From positions 1 through 37,202 of the forward strand of contig CANQWY010000009.1 of the NCBI GenBank assembly GCA_947627675.1: a stretch of DNA of 37,202 nucleotides, read 5' to 3'. This stretch comes from an uncultured Bacilli bacterium (GTDB taxonomy: Bacteria; Bacillota_I; Bacilli_A; RF39; UBA660). Positions 1 to 17,141 of this stretch are shown in pieces (position 1 is the stretch's first letter; every line of letters starts with the position of its first letter). The position numbers were made by a program, and so were the translations under genes. Under the pieces are notes generated by a model, which did not search any database, was not told the DNA's origin, and saw only the letters and a program-made list of their open reading frames with translations.

Positions 1-1488
1 GTAAATAAAAAAGTAATAGTACCCCTAATAGGAATAATAACGTTAATAATACTAGTAATAGGAATAAGCTATGCAGCCTTCACCTATAGTGGAATAGGAG
101 CAAAAGAAAACGTAATAACAACAGCAAATATATCAATGGTATATAATGAAGGAGAAAACGGAATAACATTAGAAAATGCTATACCAATGGAAGATGAAGT
201 AGGAAAAAAGTTAATAGATGAAAATCAAATATTTGATTTCACAGTAAATATAAATATTGTCGGAAAAACAGCAATAGCCTATGAAGTAACAGCAGAAAAA
301 GATAATAATTCAACGTTACAAGATAATGAAGTAAGAATCTATTTAGAAAAGTCAAATGAAGCTGATAATTATAAAGAAATATTAGAACCAAATAAATATA
401 TCCCACTAACAGAAGAAGATGAATTTGGAGCAAAAGCAGGAGAAATGGTACTAGATACAGGAAGTACGATAGAAACAACAACATATTACTACCGCTTAAG
501 AATGTGGGTAAGTAAAGAGTACCAATTAGGAAGTGAAGCAAAACACTTTACCATAAAAGTAAATGTGTATGGAAGTGATGGCAAAGTAACATTAAATAAA
601 CCAACAGCACCAACAATAACAGGAGGAAGCGAAGAATACGCGTTAGAACGTACTATAAAAGTTTCAGAAGAAGCAAAATTAGCAAGTGGTATATCTAAAT
701 ACCAATATTATCTAACAAAAGATAAAGACCAACTAACAGGAGGAACTTGGAAAGATATAGAAAGTGATGATAAAAGCATAACAATCTCAGAAAAAGGAAC
801 ACACTATGTATATTTTAGAGCAATAGGAACAAATGGTTTAGCAGGAGATGTATCAAATAAAGAAGAAGTAAACATAGGAAAAGAATACGATATAGAGAAT
901 AAAATAGAAGATGGTTCATTTGAAAGCGGGACTACGGAAAAAATTACGCTAGGTGATGGTCAAGCAAATGATTTAGTAAGTTTTATAGTAGATAATAATG
1001 TAAAATATTCTGGTAATTATGGTGCAAAATTTGTAGTAAATGGCAGCTTTAGTTCTAATAATTTTATTGGTATAATGTATTATCAACTTCTTCATTTAGA
1101 AAAAAATCATATTTATTATGCAACTGAATTTGTATATTTACCAAGTACATATAATGATATTGGAGAATTTGATTTGTTAGCATCTTCTGTATTATTGAAT
1201 CAAGGTTTTTATGAGCGAGGTAATATAAAATTTAATTCTTTAGACAGAGAACAATGGAATAAGATAAGTTTTTCTTTTGAGGAAGAAAAAGAAACAAATG
1301 ATTATTACCATTTTCGATTGGGGTATAGTTGGAGCATAAATAATACAATATATTTTGATGATATAATGTTTATTGATTTAACAGAAGTATTTGGAAGTGG
1401 AAATGAACCAACAAAAGAATACTTAGATAAATACTTAAAATATTTTGATGGTACATCTAAAATTGTATATAAAGATGTAACAAGTTAG
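1..1488 (+). CDS. Secreted/anchored TasA-like surface protein with Ig-like and carbohydrate-binding-like domains (5' truncated)
   Basis: The reading frame is open from base 1, so the true start lies upstream of the window. The first visible residues are a hydrophobic segment (about 5-22) ending in a SYAAF signal-peptidase-type motif. The same arrangement begins the protein at 15277. Residues about 35-195 form a beta-rich domain closely similar to that protein, sharing motifs such as NAIPMEDEVGK, YYYRLRMWVSK and FTIKVNVYGSDG. An Ig-like module follows (about 200-295), then a jelly-roll-like module ending in IYFDDIMFIDLTEVFGSGNEPT, which recalls CBM-like or phage-tail-type domains. Codon use shifts from A-ending to T-rich between about 900 and 1380, which suggests an acquired C-terminal domain. 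Predicted to be exported and cell-surface exposed. The binding partner is unknown and the fold assignments are inference. Confidence 0.75.
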   Translation, partial: VNKKVIVPLIGIITLIILVIGISYAAFTYSGIGAKENVITTANISMVYNEGENGITLENAIPMEDEVGKKLIDENQIFDFTVNINIVGKTAIAYEVTAEKDNNSTLQDNEVRIYLEKSNEADNYKEILEPNKYIPLTEEDEFGAKAGEMVLDTGSTIETTTYYYRLRMWVSKEYQLGSEAKHFTIKVNVYGSDGKVTLNKPTAPTITGGSEEYALERTIKVSEEAKLASGISKYQYYLTKDKDQLTGGTWKDIESDDKSITISEKGTHYVYFRAIGTNGLAGDVSNKEEVNIGKEYDIENKIEDGSFESGTTEKITLGDGQANDLVSFIVDNNVKYSGNYGAKFVVNGSFSSNNFIGIMYYQLLHLEKNHIYYATEFVYLPSTYNDIGEFDLLASSVLLNQGFYERGNIKFNSLDREQWNKISFSFEEEKETNDYYHFRLGYSWSINNTIYFDDIMFIDLTEVFGSGNEPTKEYLDKYLKYFDGTSKIVYKDVTS

Positions 1489-1550: not shown

Positions 1551-1578
1551 TTAGATATAAAATAGAAGGAGAAAGAAA

Positions 1579-3226
1579 ATGAAAAAAAGAAAAGATATAT
1601 TGTTAGTAATACCCCTAGTACTAACAATAGTTCTAATGGGGGGGGGTTACTTACGCCAAATATAGTAAGAGTATAGAAACAAAAAAGGAAATAACAATAA
1701 AAACAGGGACAAGATATATAGGAATATATGGAGTAAATGGAGCAAATAAAGAAAATATCGAATTAAATAAAGCGTATTCATTCACAATAGAAAACAGAGG
1801 AGCAGAAGATGCAAGTTATAGACTATATATCGAAGGTATAGAAAATAGTAGTATAAGTTATAGTTACACAAAAAGCGGAATAGCAACAACAGGGACATTA
1901 GCAAATAAAACAATAGATGAAAGTAATTTAAAAGTAGAAGAAAAGATAACTATAACAATAAAATTTACAGGGACAGGAAATTATAAAGGAAAACTAAAAG
2001 TAGAAACAAAAGACTATATGAATGAACCAAATACTCCAGTGTTAGTAGGAGATATGATCCCAGTAACATATAATGGAACAAACTGGGTAAAAGCAGATAC
2101 AGTAAATAATAACTGGTATGATTATAATAGAGGAGTCTGGGCTAATGCAGTAACTATAAAAGATTCATCTAAGAGAGCAGAATATAAAAATGCCCAAGCA
2201 GGAACAACTATAGATTTAAGTTATGTAAACTTAATGTTAGTATGGATACCAAGATACTCATATACATTAAGACAATCATATGGATATCAAATAGAAGGAG
2301 GATCAACACCAAGCCAAGCAACCCCCGGAGCATTTGATATCAAATTTGTAGATACAAACACAACCGAAAAAGGAACAGGAAAATACACCGGAACAACGCC
2401 GAGTAATTATTATACACCATCGTCATTTTGTTGGGGAAATACATGTGATACGACAAGAAGTGGAAATACAGAATTATCCGGAATCTGGATAAGTAAGTTT
2501 GAAATTACTGGAGATATTGAAAATATAACATCAATCCCTAATCAAGCCAGTTTAACAAATAAAAATATTTCATCACTCTTTAATGCTATAAAGAATCAAA
2601 TAAATGGAAGTAGTGGAACAACAAACTATGGCTTAAGTGGAACGAGTTATGATACTCACATGATAAAGAATACAGAATGGGGAGCCATGGCATACTTAAG
2701 TCAAAGTAAATATGGAAAATATGGGAATTCAAAATATACAAATGCCAATAAAGAAATATATCAAAATAAATCAAATGAATATAAAACAGGCTGTAGTTTT
2801 GGAATACCAAGTAATTCAGACACAAATTACGGATGCCAGTATACTTATGATATAGAGATAAATGGAACCGGAGCCAGTACCACTGGAACAATATATGGAA
2901 TATATGATACATCAGGAGGGGCTTTTGAAAGAGTAATGGGAAATTATAATGATGAAAAGGGACAATCAGGTTTTGAAGAAATGCCAGATGCTAAATATTA
3001 TAATAAATATACAAGTAATACAAGCATCAAAGGAGATGCAATAAATGTAGATGGAACAAATGGCTTTTATGGAGATTTTACAATATTTGTAGTTTCAGCC
3101 AGCCCTTGGTTCTATCGTGGAGCTAGATATAACTATGGTGTTGTCGCGGGTATCTTCGGCTTCGCCAGCACAGTTGGTGCTGCTGATCCCAGCTATGGTA
3201 CGCGTCTAGTTCTATCAACTTGGTAG
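1579..3226 (+). CDS. DGR-type variable surface protein, interrupted by a +1 shift at a nine-G tract
   Basis: ATG 1579 follows an AGAAGGAG site and encodes a basic start (MKKRKD) and a hydrophobic segment. The run of nine Gs at 1638-1646 then throws it into a stop (TAG) at 1663-1665. With eight Gs the frame runs unbroken through a V-T-Y-A-K-Y signal-peptidase-like site, a beta-rich domain (about 30-145) and a long C-terminal region to 3226. That region shares VGDMIPV, WIPRYSY, a CWGNTC segment, DTHMIKNTEWGAMAYLSQ and ERVMGNYNDEKGQSGFE with the protein at 15277. The tail ends GTRLVLSTW, like FGE/C-type-lectin-fold DGR targets. The longest intact piece starts at ATG 2018, which has no ribosome site and would lack a signal peptide. 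Probably an exported ligand-binding protein. The off frame may be phase variation or an assembly error. Confidence 0.7.
1638..1646 (+). repeat. Poly-G tract (9 G) in signal-peptide codons
   Basis: Nine consecutive Gs in DNA that is otherwise strongly AT-rich. They lie within the hydrophobic core of the signal peptide of the gene starting at 1579. Eight Gs restore the frame to the downstream coding region; nine close it after 28 codons. This is the classic position for slipped-strand phase variation. Confidence 0.8.
3107..3223 (+). other. Putative DGR variable repeat (VR) of the surface protein ending at 3226
   Basis: Thirty-nine codons from TGG to TGG, directly before the stop. Adenine is 20 of 117 bases, against roughly 40% in the upstream part of the gene. 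Codons switch from A-ending (gga, aca, ata) to C/T-ending (ggt, gct, ttc). The skeleton is WF-RG-(G/A)-x-Y-x-x-G-x-x-A-G-x-F-x-F, then G-x-A and G-x-R-LVL. The equal-length cassette at 17022-17138 keeps the skeleton but differs at 20 residues. No template repeat or reverse transcriptase is in the window, so the DGR call is inference. Confidence 0.65.
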
Positions 3227-3289: not shown

Positions 3290-4069
3290 TTAATCTAATA
3301 GTTTAACTGAAAGTGAAGCCTGATTAATACTACCTCCATCAGCTGATGTTGTAGAAATTAATACAAGTGAAAGAACAGCTCCATCATATAATTTAACGAT
3401 AGTACTTTTTGCTAAAGTTCCTGTACCTCCTGTAGTTAAGTTTAGTGTTCCTGTTGTTCCTTCTACCAATTGATTTTTATCTTTAACAGCGACTACTAGA
3501 TTTCCAGCACTTGTTAGAGTGGCAGAAATACTATAACTAACTTCGTAAATTCCTCCCTCAATTAATGTAATTGTATTGTCATTTTGAGTTACATCGTAAT
3601 CTTCCATAAAATTTTTTAATTCAACAGTGGTAGGAGTGTCTGGTAGTTGCTGAAAAGCTTGAGTTGTTGTTGAATAAAGTCCACCATAAGCGTTTAGTCC
3701 GGCAGCCGGTCCTGTAGGCCCAGTAGGTCCCGTTGGTCCTTCCACTCCTTGTATTCCAGCTATTCCCTGTGGTCCCTGTTCGCCGGTAGGTCCTGTAGGT
3801 CCAGTAGGACCAACTAGTCCGCTTGGAATAACGAAATCAAAAATAGCATTTGTACTGGTTCCTGTATTAGTAACAATAGCTTCTGAGCCAGGTGCTCCTG
3901 TTGTAATTGTTCCAATAGTAATAGTTGCTGTCGCTGGTCCAGTAGGTCCAGTAGGACCCGTAGCACCTGTTGGTCCTATGCTTCCAGTAGGTCCTGCTAT
4001 GAAACAATAATTACAATCCGGTTTACATTTTTTATTTTGTTGGAAGTTATTAAAATTTCGTGAGTTCAT
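3290..4069 (-). CDS. BclA-like collagen-repeat protein (probable spore-surface glycoprotein)
   Basis: This 259-residue protein has a short N-terminus without a signal peptide but with Cys residues (KCKPDCNYC). Gly-Pro-Thr triplets follow in two blocks (about 27-45 and 87-123). Between them sits a segment ending DFVIPSG that is typical of Firmicute collagen-like proteins. The C-terminal ~130 residues form a beta-rich domain like the trimeric BclA C-terminal (TNF-like) head. In Bacillus such proteins form the exosporium nap. Here the assignment to the spore surface rests on the family and on the other sporulation genes in the window. The ribosome site AAAGGAG (complement of 4084-4090) is somewhat far from the ATG. 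Upstream on its strand, CATATAATA (complement of 4096-4104) resembles a sporulation-sigma -10, with no clear -35. The triplet repeats are GC-rich relative to the neighbours. Confidence 0.8.
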
Positions 4070-4239: not shown

Positions 4240-7200
4240 ATGAATATCCATGATTTAGAACAAAATTTTAAGAAAAATATTTTCAATAATGAAGATGATA
4301 TAAAAATTCATTTTCATTCTGATATTGTTAAGCCAATTCTCGATGAACTCAATCCGTCAATGGCAAACCAATATAAAAGCGAAGATAATTTATTGGCTGG
4401 TGGCCGTACAGATGCAACATTTCAGAATATATCATTTGAATTAAAAAAATATAATTATTTTTCAACTACTACTGGGATAAATGAAGCATTGTATGGACGA
4501 GATTACAAAGATCATGGATTATATGATTACATTATTAGTAATGCTAATATATCTGATGATGATAATGATATTACAATAACAAAAAAAATTCTTAGTGGTA
4601 TTGGAGTCGGTTTTGATGGGAAACAATTTATATTTGCACGATTTGTACCTATTCCAAATTTAAAAAAAATAAATACTGATAAAATTAAGATTGATATAAA
4701 TAATCCGTTATATATAGAATTTTCATATGAAATAAAAAATTTTTCATTGGGATTAAAAAGATTATTATTACTTCTAAAACAACAAGATAAAATAGCTTTA
4801 AATAAAAAAAATTTAATTTCAAAGATTAATCCAAAAAGTAGTTTTGTAAGAGATAATATTAAAATCATTTATGACGAGTTAATTTTTAACTTAAAAAGTT
4901 TGGACGGTAGTAATAGAGTTAGAACTCTATATAATGAATGGGATCACGTCTTTGGAACAATGTATGGTGATGACTCTGAAGCGACATGGTTTACTGAAAT
5001 ATCATCAATTATCAAAGAGACATATGGTTATGATTCCAATTTAGACATTGATAGTAAAATATATTTATTTGCCCTACAAACCTTTTTTAATATGTTCTTG
5101 AAACTTTTAATTTACTCTTTCTTAACTCAATTAGTTAGTCCTACATTTTCAATGAATTATACACTTGATAAATCTGAAATTGATAGTTTGTTTGATGGAG
5201 AATTAAATCGTTATGAAACATTAGTAAATAATTTCTTTGAATCCCATTTTATGGAATGGTTTACTTATACTTGTTCTGATAGTAATTTTGATACAGTTGT
5301 TGTTAATTCTATTTTAAATGTTATTAGAGAATTTGATTTAAGCACGTATATATTAAAACCAGAAGAAGTGCAAGATATTTTGCAAGAAGTTTATATGGAA
5401 TTAATTCCATCAAAGATGAGACATTTAATGGGAGAATATTTTTCTCCTGATTGGATAGTAGAACATGCTTTAGATATGGTTGAATATAAAGGAGATATTA
5501 ATAAAAAAATTATTGATCCTACAGCAGGATCTGGTACTTTTTTGACTCATGCAATAAGAAGAATTATAAAATCAAGAGGATTGCTATCTAAGAAAGATAT
5601 TTATAAAATAACACATAATGTTATTGGATTTGATATTAATCCTATTTCTGTAGTATCAGCAAAAGCAAACTACATTTTAATATTATTTTCTTCTTGTAAA
5701 GATGAGGTGTTTGAAAATTTTGCTGATTCAATAGATATTCCTATATATATTGCTGATTCAATTTTATCGCCGGTTGTTTATAGTGAGGAAAATGGCGATA
5801 CTCTTTCAATTAATACTTCTGTTGGAAAGTTTGAAATTCCTAAATTTAAAAATTATGAAAATGCCAGTGAATTCTTAAAGCAGCTAAGTATGGATATTAA
5901 TGATAAATGTAGTTTTGAACGCTTCTGGAATAAAGTCTCTGATAGATTAATAGATGAAAGTTACCAACAAGTTGTTAAAAAGCTTTTTGATAGATTATAT
6001 ACATTACATCGCGCTGGTAATGATTCATTCTGGCCCATTATTTTAAGAAATAGCTTTGCACCAATTTTGATTGGCGATAAGTTTGATTTTGTAGTTGGAA
6101 ATCCACCTTGGATAGCATGGAAATCTATGAGCAAGAGTTATCGTGAAGGAACATTAGAAGTATGGAAAAGTTATGGTATTTTTGAGAAAAATGCTTACGA
6201 TAAAAAAACTACCCATGATGATTTTGGAATGGCAGTTACTTATGTTGCAATAGATAAATATTTAAAAGATAATGGGAATATGTTGTTTTTACTTCCGGCA
6301 TCATTTTTGAAATCGACAAAAGGTGGCGAAGGCTTTAGAAAATTTTTTATTACAAGACATGGACAAAATATTCCTTTCTCAATAGAAGAAGTTGATGATT
6401 TTTCAAATGTAAAATTATTTACTGTTCCTACTGTAGCTGTAAAAATAAAAAAAGGGACAAAAATGAAATATCCTTTAAAAAATTATATAGTTTGGACTCA
6501 AAAAGGAAGGAAAAAAAATATTGATTCCCATGCAAAATGGATTGATGTCCAACAGAAATTAGATAAAAGTAAATTATTAGCACAACCTGTTGACAAAAAT
6601 AATAATCAATCTTCTTGGTTAACAATGGAGAATATGGAATTTGCAAATAAAGTATTAAATCCATTAAAAGAAAGAATATATAGTGGTAGAAAAGGAATCG
6701 AACCAGCGGGTGCAAAGGGCATTTTTATATTAAAACATCCCGTAAAATCTATGGATGGATTACTTTTGATAGAAAACTGTATAGAAAGGCAAAGAAGAAA
6801 AGACTTTATCAAAAAAGGAGTACATAAGGGAAAAATAGAAGAAGATTATATTTTCCCTATGTTAGGTGGAAGAAATATAGAAAAATGGAAAGTAAAATCA
6901 TGTGAATTTATGCTCGTTCCACATTCAATAGAATATAAATATGGTATACCAGAAAAAATACTTGAAAAAAAAGCTCCTAATACAGCTACTTGGCTTAATT
7001 ATTATCATGATGAACTTTTAGCGAGTAGGATTCAAAATGGTAAATTCTTTAATCCTAGTACACAACCATACTATCGATTAGATAATGTTGGCGAATATAC
7101 ATATTTACCATATAAAGTTTTATGGAAAGAACAAACAGGGAGTATGTCGGCAGTTGTAGTTTCATCATATTATAATTCTATTCCTAATGCAGATAAAAGT

Positions 7201-7521
7201 CTCTTTATGAAGGATAAAATAATAGTTGTTGATTCAAAAGTTTTAATGTTGGGTCTTAGAAATATTGATGAAGCCTATTATGTATGCGGAATATTAAATT
7301 CTAAAAGTATTACAAATATTATCGATAGTTATGCTATTTCAACTAATAGAGGAATAGATGTTTTGAAATATTTAGCTATTCCAAAGTTTAATAGTAATAA
7401 TAAATTGCATAAGAAAATATCGGAAGTATCTGAGGAGATTCATAATAATAAGAAATCTGGTATTGATGATATTAAAAGACTTGAAAACTTACTTAATGAT
7501 TTTGTTAGGAAAATATTTTAA
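4240..7521 (+). CDS. Type IIG restriction-modification enzyme (N6-adenine methyltransferase with N-terminal nuclease)
   Basis: A single 1093-residue polypeptide combines three parts. The N-terminal nuclease-like domain carries GGRTDATF with D58 followed by E67-L-K69, a PD-(D/E)xK pattern. The gamma-class N6-adenine methyltransferase core has SAM motif I DPTAGSGTFL (D426) and catalytic motif IV NPPW (N621-W624). The C-terminal ~350 residues are a plausible target-recognition region. This is the layout of Eco57I-like type IIG enzymes, which cleave near an asymmetric site and methylate one strand. No separate specificity, restriction or BREX/DISARM gene adjoins it, so it appears self-contained. 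The start follows TGGAGG and its own promoter. It lies between the collagen-like gene and the ribosomal operon, a likely insertion of a defence gene. The recognition sequence cannot be predicted here. Confidence 0.85.
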   Translation: MNIHDLEQNFKKNIFNNEDDIKIHFHSDIVKPILDELNPSMANQYKSEDNLLAGGRTDATFQNISFELKKYNYFSTTTGINEALYGRDYKDHGLYDYIISNANISDDDNDITITKKILSGIGVGFDGKQFIFARFVPIPNLKKINTDKIKIDINNPLYIEFSYEIKNFSLGLKRLLLLLKQQDKIALNKKNLISKINPKSSFVRDNIKIIYDELIFNLKSLDGSNRVRTLYNEWDHVFGTMYGDDSEATWFTEISSIIKETYGYDSNLDIDSKIYLFALQTFFNMFLKLLIYSFLTQLVSPTFSMNYTLDKSEIDSLFDGELNRYETLVNNFFESHFMEWFTYTCSDSNFDTVVVNSILNVIREFDLSTYILKPEEVQDILQEVYMELIPSKMRHLMGEYFSPDWIVEHALDMVEYKGDINKKIIDPTAGSGTFLTHAIRRIIKSRGLLSKKDIYKITHNVIGFDINPISVVSAKANYILILFSSCKDEVFENFADSIDIPIYIADSILSPVVYSEENGDTLSINTSVGKFEIPKFKNYENASEFLKQLSMDINDKCSFERFWNKVSDRLIDESYQQVVKKLFDRLYTLHRAGNDSFWPIILRNSFAPILIGDKFDFVVGNPPWIAWKSMSKSYREGTLEVWKSYGIFEKNAYDKKTTHDDFGMAVTYVAIDKYLKDNGNMLFLLPASFLKSTKGGEGFRKFFITRHGQNIPFSIEEVDDFSNVKLFTVPTVAVKIKKGTKMKYPLKNYIVWTQKGRKKNIDSHAKWIDVQQKLDKSKLLAQPVDKNNNQSSWLTMENMEFANKVLNPLKERIYSGRKGIEPAGAKGIFILKHPVKSMDGLLLIENCIERQRRKDFIKKGVHKGKIEEDYIFPMLGGRNIEKWKVKSCEFMLVPHSIEYKYGIPEKILEKKAPNTATWLNYYHDELLASRIQNGKFFNPSTQPYYRLDNVGEYTYLPYKVLWKEQTGSMSAVVVSSYYNSIPNADKSLFMKDKIIVVDSKVLMLGLRNIDEAYYVCGILNSKSITNIIDSYAISTNRGIDVLKYLAIPKFNSNNKLHKKISEVSEEIHNNKKSGIDDIKRLENLLNDFVRKIF

Positions 7522-15210: not shown

Positions 15211-15276
15211 TTAAATATAAGATATGAGTATAATAATAAAAAAAGTACTCATAATAAGTAGTAAGAGGTGTTTATG

Positions 15277-17007
15277 ATGAATAAAGAAAAAAATAAAAAA
15301 GTAGCATTAACGATATTAGGAATAATAATATTAGTAGTAATGGTATTAGGAATAAGTTATGCGGCATTTAATTACACAGGAAAAGGAGAAGTAGAAAATG
15401 CCATAACAACAGGAACAATAACAATGGTATATACAGAAGGAGATAATGGAATAACTCTAAGTAATGCCATACCAATGGAAGATGAAGTAGGAAAGCAACT
15501 AAAAGATGATAACCAAATGTTTGATTTCACAGTTCAAATAAATATTGTAGGAAATACAACAATAAGTTATGAAGTAACTGCTGAAAAACAAACAGATAGT
15601 ACATTACAAAATAATGAAGTAAGGATCTATTTAGAAAGATCAACAGATAAAGCAAATTATAATGCAGTATCAAATGAAGTAACAGGATATGTCCCATTAG
15701 AAGAAGCAGATAGTTTTGGAGCGAAAGTAGGGGAAATGGTGTTAGATACAGGAAGTACAAGTACAACAGCAACATACTATTATCGCTTAAGAATGTGGGT
15801 AAGCAAGAGTTATGAATTAACAGAGGAATCAAAGCACTTTACCATAAAAGTAAACGTCTATGGAAGTGATGGAGTAAAAGTAACATCAAGATATTTAAAA
15901 GAATTTGGAAAAGACACATCAAATGCCAATAAACCAGAATTAGTAGGAGATATGATTCCAGTAGTATGGGATGAAAAAAATAAAACATGGGTAAAATCCC
16001 CAACTAATCAAAATAATTATTATAATTACGAAAATCAAAATTGGGCCAATGCCGTAACGATAAAAGAAACAGATAAAAGAGCAGAATATAAAAGCGCACC
16101 AATAGGAACAGAAGTGAAGATGACTGATATAAACACAATGTGGGTCTGGATCCCAAGATATTCATATGCTTTAAAAGGAGATTATGGAACACAAATAGGA
16201 GAAACTACTCCAAATCAAAATACCCCAGGAGCTTTTGATATTAAGTTTGTGAATACAAGTACAACTGATACTGGAGCCGGCAAATATACAGTAGATAATC
16301 CAGGTGGATATTATTATACACCATCAAGTTTTTGTTGGGGCAACACATGTGATGATGAAGGTCAAAGAAGTAATGAGAATACAGAATTATCTGGAATCTG
16401 GATAAGTAAATTTGAGATGACTGGTTCATTAACTGAAATAACATCAAAACCAAACGAAACGAGCATAACAAATCAAACAAATCAATCATTCTTTAATGCC
16501 ATTCAAACACAAATGAATAATACAAATGGTTCTACAAATTATGGTTTTAATGGAAATAATTATGATACGCATATGATAAAGAACACAGAATGGGGAGCGA
16601 TGGCCTATTTAAGTCAAAGTAAATACGGCAAGTATGGTAATAAAAATTATACAGGGGTTAATAAAGAGATTTATATAAATGATTATAGTGGATTACAAAC
16701 AGGATGTAGTAAAGGAGCGCCAGGAAGTGGAACTAGCGGTAATTCAAACAAATCAGATACATGTGAACATCAATATATGGAACCGGAGCCAGTACAACCG
16801 GGACGATATATGGAATCTACGATACTGTGGGAGGAGCCTGGGAACGTGTTATGGGAAATTACAATGATGAAAAGGGACAATCAGGATTTGAACAAATGCC
16901 CGAAAGAAAATATTATAATAAATATACAAATGAAACGGGAATCAAAGGCGATGCCACAAAAGCAGAAGGAACGAATGGATTTTATGAAGATTATCAAGAA
17001 TTTATAA
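15277..17007 (+). CDS. DGR-type variable surface protein, frameshifted before its variable cassette
   Basis: AAGAGGTG (15263-15270) best serves ATG 15277, although ATG 15274 and GTG 15268 are also in frame. The protein starts with a basic tail, a membrane segment and SYAAF. It then has a TasA-like beta domain nearly matching the protein at the window start, followed by the VGDMIPV...WVWIPRYSY...DTHMIKNTEWGAMAYLSQ region shared with the gene ending at 3226. Homology stops at about residue 500 (base 16776). There a single base appears missing: CAA-TAT-ATG where CAA-TAT-AAT-GGA is expected. Translation then continues in the wrong frame to a stop at 17007, giving an unrelated ~76-residue tail. 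The correct continuation is the next entry. Exported and probably cell-anchored. Whether the lesion is real, reversible or a sequencing error is open. Confidence 0.7.
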   Translation: MNKEKNKKVALTILGIIILVVMVLGISYAAFNYTGKGEVENAITTGTITMVYTEGDNGITLSNAIPMEDEVGKQLKDDNQMFDFTVQINIVGNTTISYEVTAEKQTDSTLQNNEVRIYLERSTDKANYNAVSNEVTGYVPLEEADSFGAKVGEMVLDTGSTSTTATYYYRLRMWVSKSYELTEESKHFTIKVNVYGSDGVKVTSRYLKEFGKDTSNANKPELVGDMIPVVWDEKNKTWVKSPTNQNNYYNYENQNWANAVTIKETDKRAEYKSAPIGTEVKMTDINTMWVWIPRYSYALKGDYGTQIGETTPNQNTPGAFDIKFVNTSTTDTGAGKYTVDNPGGYYYTPSSFCWGNTCDDEGQRSNENTELSGIWISKFEMTGSLTEITSKPNETSITNQTNQSFFNAIQTQMNNTNGSTNYGFNGNNYDTHMIKNTEWGAMAYLSQSKYGKYGNKNYTGVNKEIYINDYSGLQTGCSKGAPGSGTSGNSNKSDTCEHQYMEPEPVQPGRYMESTILWEEPGNVLWEITMMKRDNQDLNKCPKENIIINIQMKRESKAMPQKQKERMDFMKIIKNL

Positions 17008-17141
17008 CTTCTTCTGCCCCTTGGTTTACCTGTGGCGGTCTCTATTCCGATGGTGTTCGCGCTGGTGTTTTCCGCTTCGGTAACGGCAATGGTTCTGCTA
17101 ACATCAACTCTGGTTCGCGCCTTGTTTTAGCTACCTGGTAG
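16827..17141 (+). pseudogene. Out-of-frame C-terminal part of the surface protein at 15277 (variable C-type-lectin-like tail)
   Basis: In the third frame, sequence homologous to the gene ending at 3226 resumes at about 16779 (GTGASTTGTIYGIYDT) and runs to 17141. GTG 16827 is only the first possible start codon and has no ribosome site, so independent translation is unlikely. It contains ERVMGNYNDEKGQSGFE and the variable cassette ending in SRLVLATW. Adding one base near 16776 joins it to the upstream frame. It is best read as the real C-terminus of that protein rather than a separate gene. Confidence 0.75.
17022..17138 (+). other. Putative DGR variable repeat (VR) of the surface protein at 15277
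   Basis: Thirty-nine codons from TGG to TGG, then the stop. Adenine is 14 of 117 bases, and nearly every third position is C or T. AAC/AAT codons remain at 21, 23, 27 and 29, where the partner cassette at 3107-3223 has AGC, GTT, GAT and AGC. That is the pattern left when AAY codons in a template are randomised at their adenines. Confidence 0.65.

Follow-up and report, generated by a model that had tools for sequence, protein, structure and literature searches.

A nine-guanine tract as a putative on/off switch for retroelement-diversified surface proteins of an uncultured Bacilli bacterium

Does a run of nine guanines in a signal-peptide coding region decide whether a surface protein is made or not? 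The question is raised by a locus in the window, i.e. the whole stretch of 37,202 nucleotides that was analysed, which is contig C9 of a 1.57 Mb assembly that is 94% complete. A sequence-only reading of the locus had proposed that eight Gs give the full protein, that nine Gs stop translation after 28 codons, and that slippage in the tract forms a phase-variable switch layered on a hypervariable cassette. The features of the window that concern these claims are as follows; class A and class B denote two sets of tract-bearing genes, DGR stands for diversity-generating retroelement, and VR, TR and RT for its variable region, template repeat and reverse transcriptase.

1 to 1488, forward strand: upstream gene, a class B paralog with a SipW/TasA-like signal and a C-terminus without VR.
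1565 to 1571, forward strand: Shine-Dalgarno-like AAGGAGA within ...AGAAGGAGAAAGAAAATG, a sequence conserved in class A paralogs.
1579 to 1665, forward strand: open reading frame as written, with start codon, n- and h-region of the signal peptide, frameshifted tail and stop (28 codons).
1638 to 1646, forward strand: G9 tract closing the h-region of the signal peptide; the frame is continuous only with 8 or 11 Gs.
1647 to 3226, forward strand: mature-protein frame of the class A DGR-target surface protein, open from 1649, with the stop at 3224-3226.
3095 to 3226, forward strand: VR, with the C-lectin-type motif ...WFYRGARYNYGVVAGIFGF...GTRLVLSTW.
15268 to 17141, forward strand: second DGR-target paralog on the contig, without a G-tract, with its VR at 17010-17138.

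When the sequence was read directly, positions 1638-1646 held exactly nine Gs, the sole G-run of at least seven in the 37 kb window (three G heptamer matches against 0.15 expected, all within this run), which bears out the count given earlier. Translation from the ATG at 1579-1581, with the AAGGAGA Shine-Dalgarno ahead of it, yields with nine Gs the 28 codons MKKRKDILLVIPLVLTIVLMGGGYLRQI followed by a stop, again as claimed. On the 3' side of the tract the frame TYAKYSKSIET...GTRLVLSTW runs for 525 open codons to position 3223. Because a TAA abuts the tract directly upstream in that frame, the 525 codons can be reached from ATG 1579 only when the number of Gs, n, satisfies n mod 3 = 2 (8 or 11 Gs). 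In the other phase (...VLMGGVTYA) the half 5' of the tract is a signal peptide. Ten Gs, as found in four paralogs, are likewise out of phase. The earlier arithmetic, by which eight Gs join the signal peptide to the full protein, was accordingly correct.

The 525-codon protein had 46 matches in the source genome, which correspond to about 40 dispersed genes and fragments, and a complete DGR with its parts all on one strand was found on another contig, C26.

C26, 15264 to 16308: RT (PF00078; motifs GIPIGNYTSQYFANIYL and YMDD).
C26, 16271 to 16640: accessory protein Avd (NF033474, E 3.6e-21).
C26, 17242 to 17400: TR.

The target next to RT differs from TR at 19 positions, 19/19 of them TR adenines. 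Over 36 aligned VR copies, a set that includes TR itself and one partial duplicate, the change rate by TR base was 0.54 for A, 0.31 for C, 0.21 for G and 0.13 for T. The VR of the window shows 37 differences from TR, 18 at adenines and 19 at other bases, and is therefore an older or more diverged target. The presumed hypervariable cassette is thus the VR of a complete DGR with A-biased changes. In the second target on the contig (15268-17141) the frame is broken near 16760-16790 by a frameshift outside any homopolymer. From motif resemblance, the VR tip may adopt a lectin fold; the AlphaFold model of P0001 was poor (pLDDT 45), and searches with the target protein returned no PDB profile match and no Pfam or NCBIfam match at all, Opa included.

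Some neighbouring observations are recorded here. Downstream of the class A gene the window encodes, at 3290-4069 on the reverse strand, a collagen-repeat protein with a BclA C-terminal-like domain, which resembles exosporium or surface glycoproteins, and, at 4240-7521 on the forward strand, an Eco57I-like restriction-modification enzyme whose gene lies between the DGR target and rplU-rpmA-obg. A genome of the same genus (G001; contigs C25, C38, C72, C103, C271 and others) carries at least 15 VR-only-like frames of about 57 codons, several per contig; these may be a large set of template repeats or of silent VR cassettes.

To place the tract in its genomic context, the genome DNA was examined as stretches around tracts and targets. 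It contains 36 G-tracts of eight or more, against roughly 0.6-5.4 expected (0.6 from independent bases, 5.4 from a run-extension estimate on the window). They lie in the signal peptides or N-terminal leaders of surface-protein genes, in a single promoter spacer and in two genes that look like envelope-modification genes, so that a length far above chance goes together with a place in an N-terminal coding region or a promoter, as is typical of phase variation. The switch tract proposed for the window is supported in this way, but it does not stand alone, being one of 36.

Class A comprises 25 tract copies at an identical signal-peptide position, corresponding to about 22 genes, since contig ends have split some genes into halves that count as separate copies. 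About 22 paralogs with the same tract make up a genomic bank of DGR-diversified surface proteins. The lengths are 21 G9 and 4 G10, and every copy is out of frame; no G8 or G11 was seen among the 25 copies. With random lengths, the chance that none of 22 class A genes is in frame is P = 1.3e-4, and an all-OFF class A is unexpected for a simple unbiased switch. The default state of class A is silent, with all copies OFF in the consensus.

Class B, on the other hand, consists of eight tracts that follow a nine-codon leader, MKKINNCSN, and precede a hydrophobic SipW/TasA-like signal. Five of them are G9 and in frame, and three are G10 and out of frame, although G10 brings into frame an internal ATG that overlaps the tract and has no Shine-Dalgarno. 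The start of the window falls just 3' of the class B tract site, and the tract belonging to the frame at 1-1488 has been lost at the contig end. A G9 tract is out of frame in class A and in frame in class B, a point by which the sequence-only reading is to be corrected. The length mix is similar in the two classes (Fisher p = 0.32, on few class B copies), which suggests that the lengths are at a mutational equilibrium and that the phase bias arises from the architecture; whether a class is mostly OFF or mostly ON would be set by the number of bases flanking the tract.

The remaining three tracts lie on contigs C35, C54 and C85, in or before genes named by inspection, which are further likely phase-variable envelope genes.

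C35, position 3240 (L103/L169): acyltransferase-like membrane protein split by a G9, out of frame.
C54, position 3358 (L111/L170): serine-acetyltransferase-like gene with a G8, in frame.
C85, position 233 (L119/L171): glycosyltransferase-like gene with a G9 in the promoter spacer.

Only the tract on C85 is of the promoter type; the main tracts of the source genome lie in coding sequence.

Length variation was found on an otherwise unchanged background. Two class A copies, L101 (G10) and L105 (G9), match perfectly for 82 bases upstream of the tract and for 87 bases downstream, and the class B copies L093 and L116 share 44 and 92 flanking bases with tracts of G9 and G10. Over these stretches each pair differs only in the tract, which therefore changes faster than its surroundings; the polymorphism is one between paralogs and not between alleles of one locus. 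A search with the tract motif for other strains gave no match in viral_contigs and three in genome_contigs, all unrelated (records of the own genome may be left out of that search). The source genome encodes MutS1. Raised slippage through mismatch-repair loss is thus not to be expected, and such a loss was rejected as the cause of the long tracts.

Since class A is out of frame throughout in the consensus, its members could be a set of pseudogenes in which G9 is a fixed frameshift, the more so as an internal stop in one copy and an early end in another were seen (L025/L092 and L106). A fixed nine had indeed been named beforehand as the mark of a dead gene. However, nearly all full class A copies have an intact frame downstream of the tract, and in the 19 full-length genes, with frames of about 525 codons, dN/dS outside the VR has a median of 0.37 (range 0.25-0.52). 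Moreover, the changes in the VRs are A-biased, a sign of rewriting by the DGR, and it is implausible that about 22 genes were lost at once by the same change. We thus give the dead-gene explanation hardly any credence.

Are such tracts a peculiarity of this genome? The lineage is probably RF39-like, to judge by its small AT-rich genomes, by the many genomes of 0.6-1 Mb in a sample of the phylum and by a YqfD-like gene that scores below its NCBIfam cut-off. In a sample of 145 genomes of the family, promoters of the form TTGACA-N-G7+-N-TANNAT were found in 34 (33 genera), and a reversed control of the pattern gave zero matches in the same 145; in a wider sample of the phylum the pattern occurred in 12 of 195 genomes. 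N-terminal coding tracts were present in 18/145 family genomes, with some control matches in a few others, and either type in 48/145. Within the genus, G006 has homologues of this protein family, some with a VR-type end, behind promoters in which G8-13 forms the -35/-10 spacer, and G005 has similar promoter tracts ahead of other secreted proteins. Several genera have their own, unrelated leader followed by a tract and a secreted frame. G080, for example, has type-IV-pilin-like starts and a variable end of the GVRPV type, G142 has proteins of the WANAV type, and G049 and G094 have other families. The poly-G tracts arose independently in many genera. Across the family, their presence is weakly linked to that of Avd (p = 0.047 for promoter tracts, p = 0.07 for either type).

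The tract length decides the frame in the leaders of other genera too, and ON and OFF lengths are found side by side: G8 off, G9 on and G10 off in G142, G9 on and G10 off in G130, and G10 on and G11 off in G080. Among 30 scorable leaders outside the source genome, 4 were ON, 20 had one G too many and 6 one too few. The usual optimum of a promoter spacer is 17 bases, and the spacers with tracts peak at 19 (sample of 98 sites), i.e. one or two bases above it. We read this consensus state just above ON, which is shared by the coding and promoter designs, as a default-OFF bias, with systematic overcalling as the technical alternative.

As separate observations, six genomes (G138, G125, G083, G024, G034 and G089) have 16-33 poly-G promoter matches each, and the modal promoter tract length differs by species (G9 in G125, G8 in G083, G9/G10 in G138). 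In G005 (C46; L137:1846) a serine-recombinase-like gene carries an in-frame G10 in the middle of its coding sequence and is possibly a phase-variable recombinase.

If the tracts were overcalled in assembly or sequencing, their true length would be eight and the proteins would be constitutive. The state one G above ON is common, as such an error would have it, and many contigs break at tracts; identical stretches extend up to 199 bases, so the assembler may pull the lengths of individual copies to the commonest one. Copies in a unique context are also G9 (the second copy of L118, 48 bases, and L106, 63 bases). A true length one below that called would, however, break in the same assembly both class B, which reads through at 9, and the acetyltransferase-like gene on C54, which does so at 8; lengths of 8, 9 and 10 coexist, and other genera behave alike with different modal lengths. 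Overcalling is thus very improbable as the explanation.

Another possibility is that the tract is fixed at nine and nevertheless productive, because slippage of RNA polymerase or the ribosome (+1 type, in effect skipping one G) would provide a low, constant level of all class A proteins. The frames are conserved despite every class A copy being OFF, and a correction by one G fewer fits 21/25 class A copies and 20/26 OFF copies in other genera. The opposite correction is needed within the same leader families, though (class A G10, G142 G8 and G049 G10), class B and several other genes are already in frame, and the tracts that related genera have in promoter spacers cannot act through translational slippage. 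We consider this explanation unlikely, albeit the least so of the alternatives.

The flanks of the tract, finally, could point to a role in recombination, with the tract and its near-identical surroundings mainly reshuffling cassettes between paralogs and the effect on the frame being incidental. About 66 bases upstream (pi 0.04) and 30 downstream (pi 0.01) are near-identical and the next 90 diverge (0.17), and the motif GTTCTAAT-G9 is common to class A and class B, whose frames differ. In contrast, the independent tracts of other genera have unrelated flanks, and they lie where expression switches would be looked for (promoter spacer, first 20 codons). A recombination anchor is as remote an explanation as a set of dead genes.

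The proposal of a phase-variable switch is, on the other hand, supported by the roughly 22 paralogs, by G9 and G10 in otherwise identical sequence and by purifying selection, and further by independent promoter and leader tracts that recur in the family with mixed ON and OFF lengths. We hold it highly probable that the locus is subject to slipped-strand phase variation, with class A OFF by default, layered on DGR diversification. In the mechanism envisaged, G9 would be a contingency (simple-sequence-repeat) tract in which slipped-strand replication would gain or lose single Gs, and only cells with 8 (or 11) Gs would translate the signal peptide through into the 525-residue surface protein, the C-terminal lectin-type tip of which would be rewritten by the DGR and may bind variable ligands. 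In most cells the class A bank would be OFF, its modal length of 9 exceeding the ON length by one G, and its members would be released singly and stochastically. Switching as such, including slippage at phase-variation rates and the existence of ON cells, is suggested by these patterns in the DNA.

Mechanistically, the closest system is the opa family of gonococci; the locus works like opa but is not an Opa. Neisseria gonorrhoeae has 9-12 opa loci, and each copy carries a repeat where the signal sequence is encoded; slippage there sets the frame, the alleles are very diverse, and in-frame copies are fewer than chance (mean 1.7 vs 3.4) (PMC13183285). Like class A, opa thus combines multi-copy surface proteins, a signal-sequence repeat that sets the frame, and a number of in-frame copies below chance. 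Unlike class A, the opa repeat is the pentanucleotide CTCTT and not a mononucleotide, its diversity is not made by a DGR, the host is a Gram-negative pathogen, and the sequences are unrelated.

In Campylobacter jejuni, 29 loci with G/C tracts of at least 7 toggle reading frames ON and OFF (PMC4965091). The number and length of the tracts are similar to those of the source genome, but C. jejuni is without a DGR-diversified family of paralogs. Mismatch repair is weak in C. jejuni, whereas the source genome has MutS1. Poly-G or poly-C switches in promoter spacers are known from meningococcal porA and opc and from Bordetella fim. The -35/-10 G-tracts of the 34/145 family genomes, including those before the homologues of this gene family in G006, are of this kind; the source genome differs in that its main tracts are coding, with the promoter type at C85 only.

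DGRs with multiple VRs are known (PMC6642488), and cellular DGR targets usually have N-terminal membrane anchors or signal peptides (PMC8144416). The DGR described here agrees with cellular multi-target DGRs in having TR, Avd, RT and an A-biased VR at the C-terminus of secreted proteins, and is set apart by the roughly 40 target genes and fragments that are scattered over 1.57 Mb. In the literature searched, mostly without subscription papers, no paper that describes an on/off slippage switch on DGR targets turned up, nor any that reports poly-G phasomes in uncultured lineages of this kind.

Why genomes with multiple phase-variable loci seem confined to pathogens is a major open question according to a 2025 review of phase variation (PMC11868660). 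The present analysis finds large poly-G phasomes in a family of uncultured small-genome bacteria, with 36 tracts in the source genome and at least one promoter-spacer or N-terminal tract in 48/145 sampled genomes. It also brings together DGR hypermutation, which determines which variant there is, and slippage, which determines whether it is shown, two mechanisms so far examined separately. The bias towards one G above ON resembles that of gonococcal opa and leads to a testable prediction on default-silent repertoires. More tentatively, and with somewhat less than even confidence, we propose a lineage-wide system of two layers, in which one DGR would rewrite in trans the binding tips of dozens of surface proteins, and poly-G tracts, repeatedly evolved in promoters and leaders and tuned to an equilibrium one G above ON, would keep nearly all copies silent and release them singly. 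If true, this two-layer system would be the bacterial counterpart of a repertoire that is diversified but sparsely expressed.
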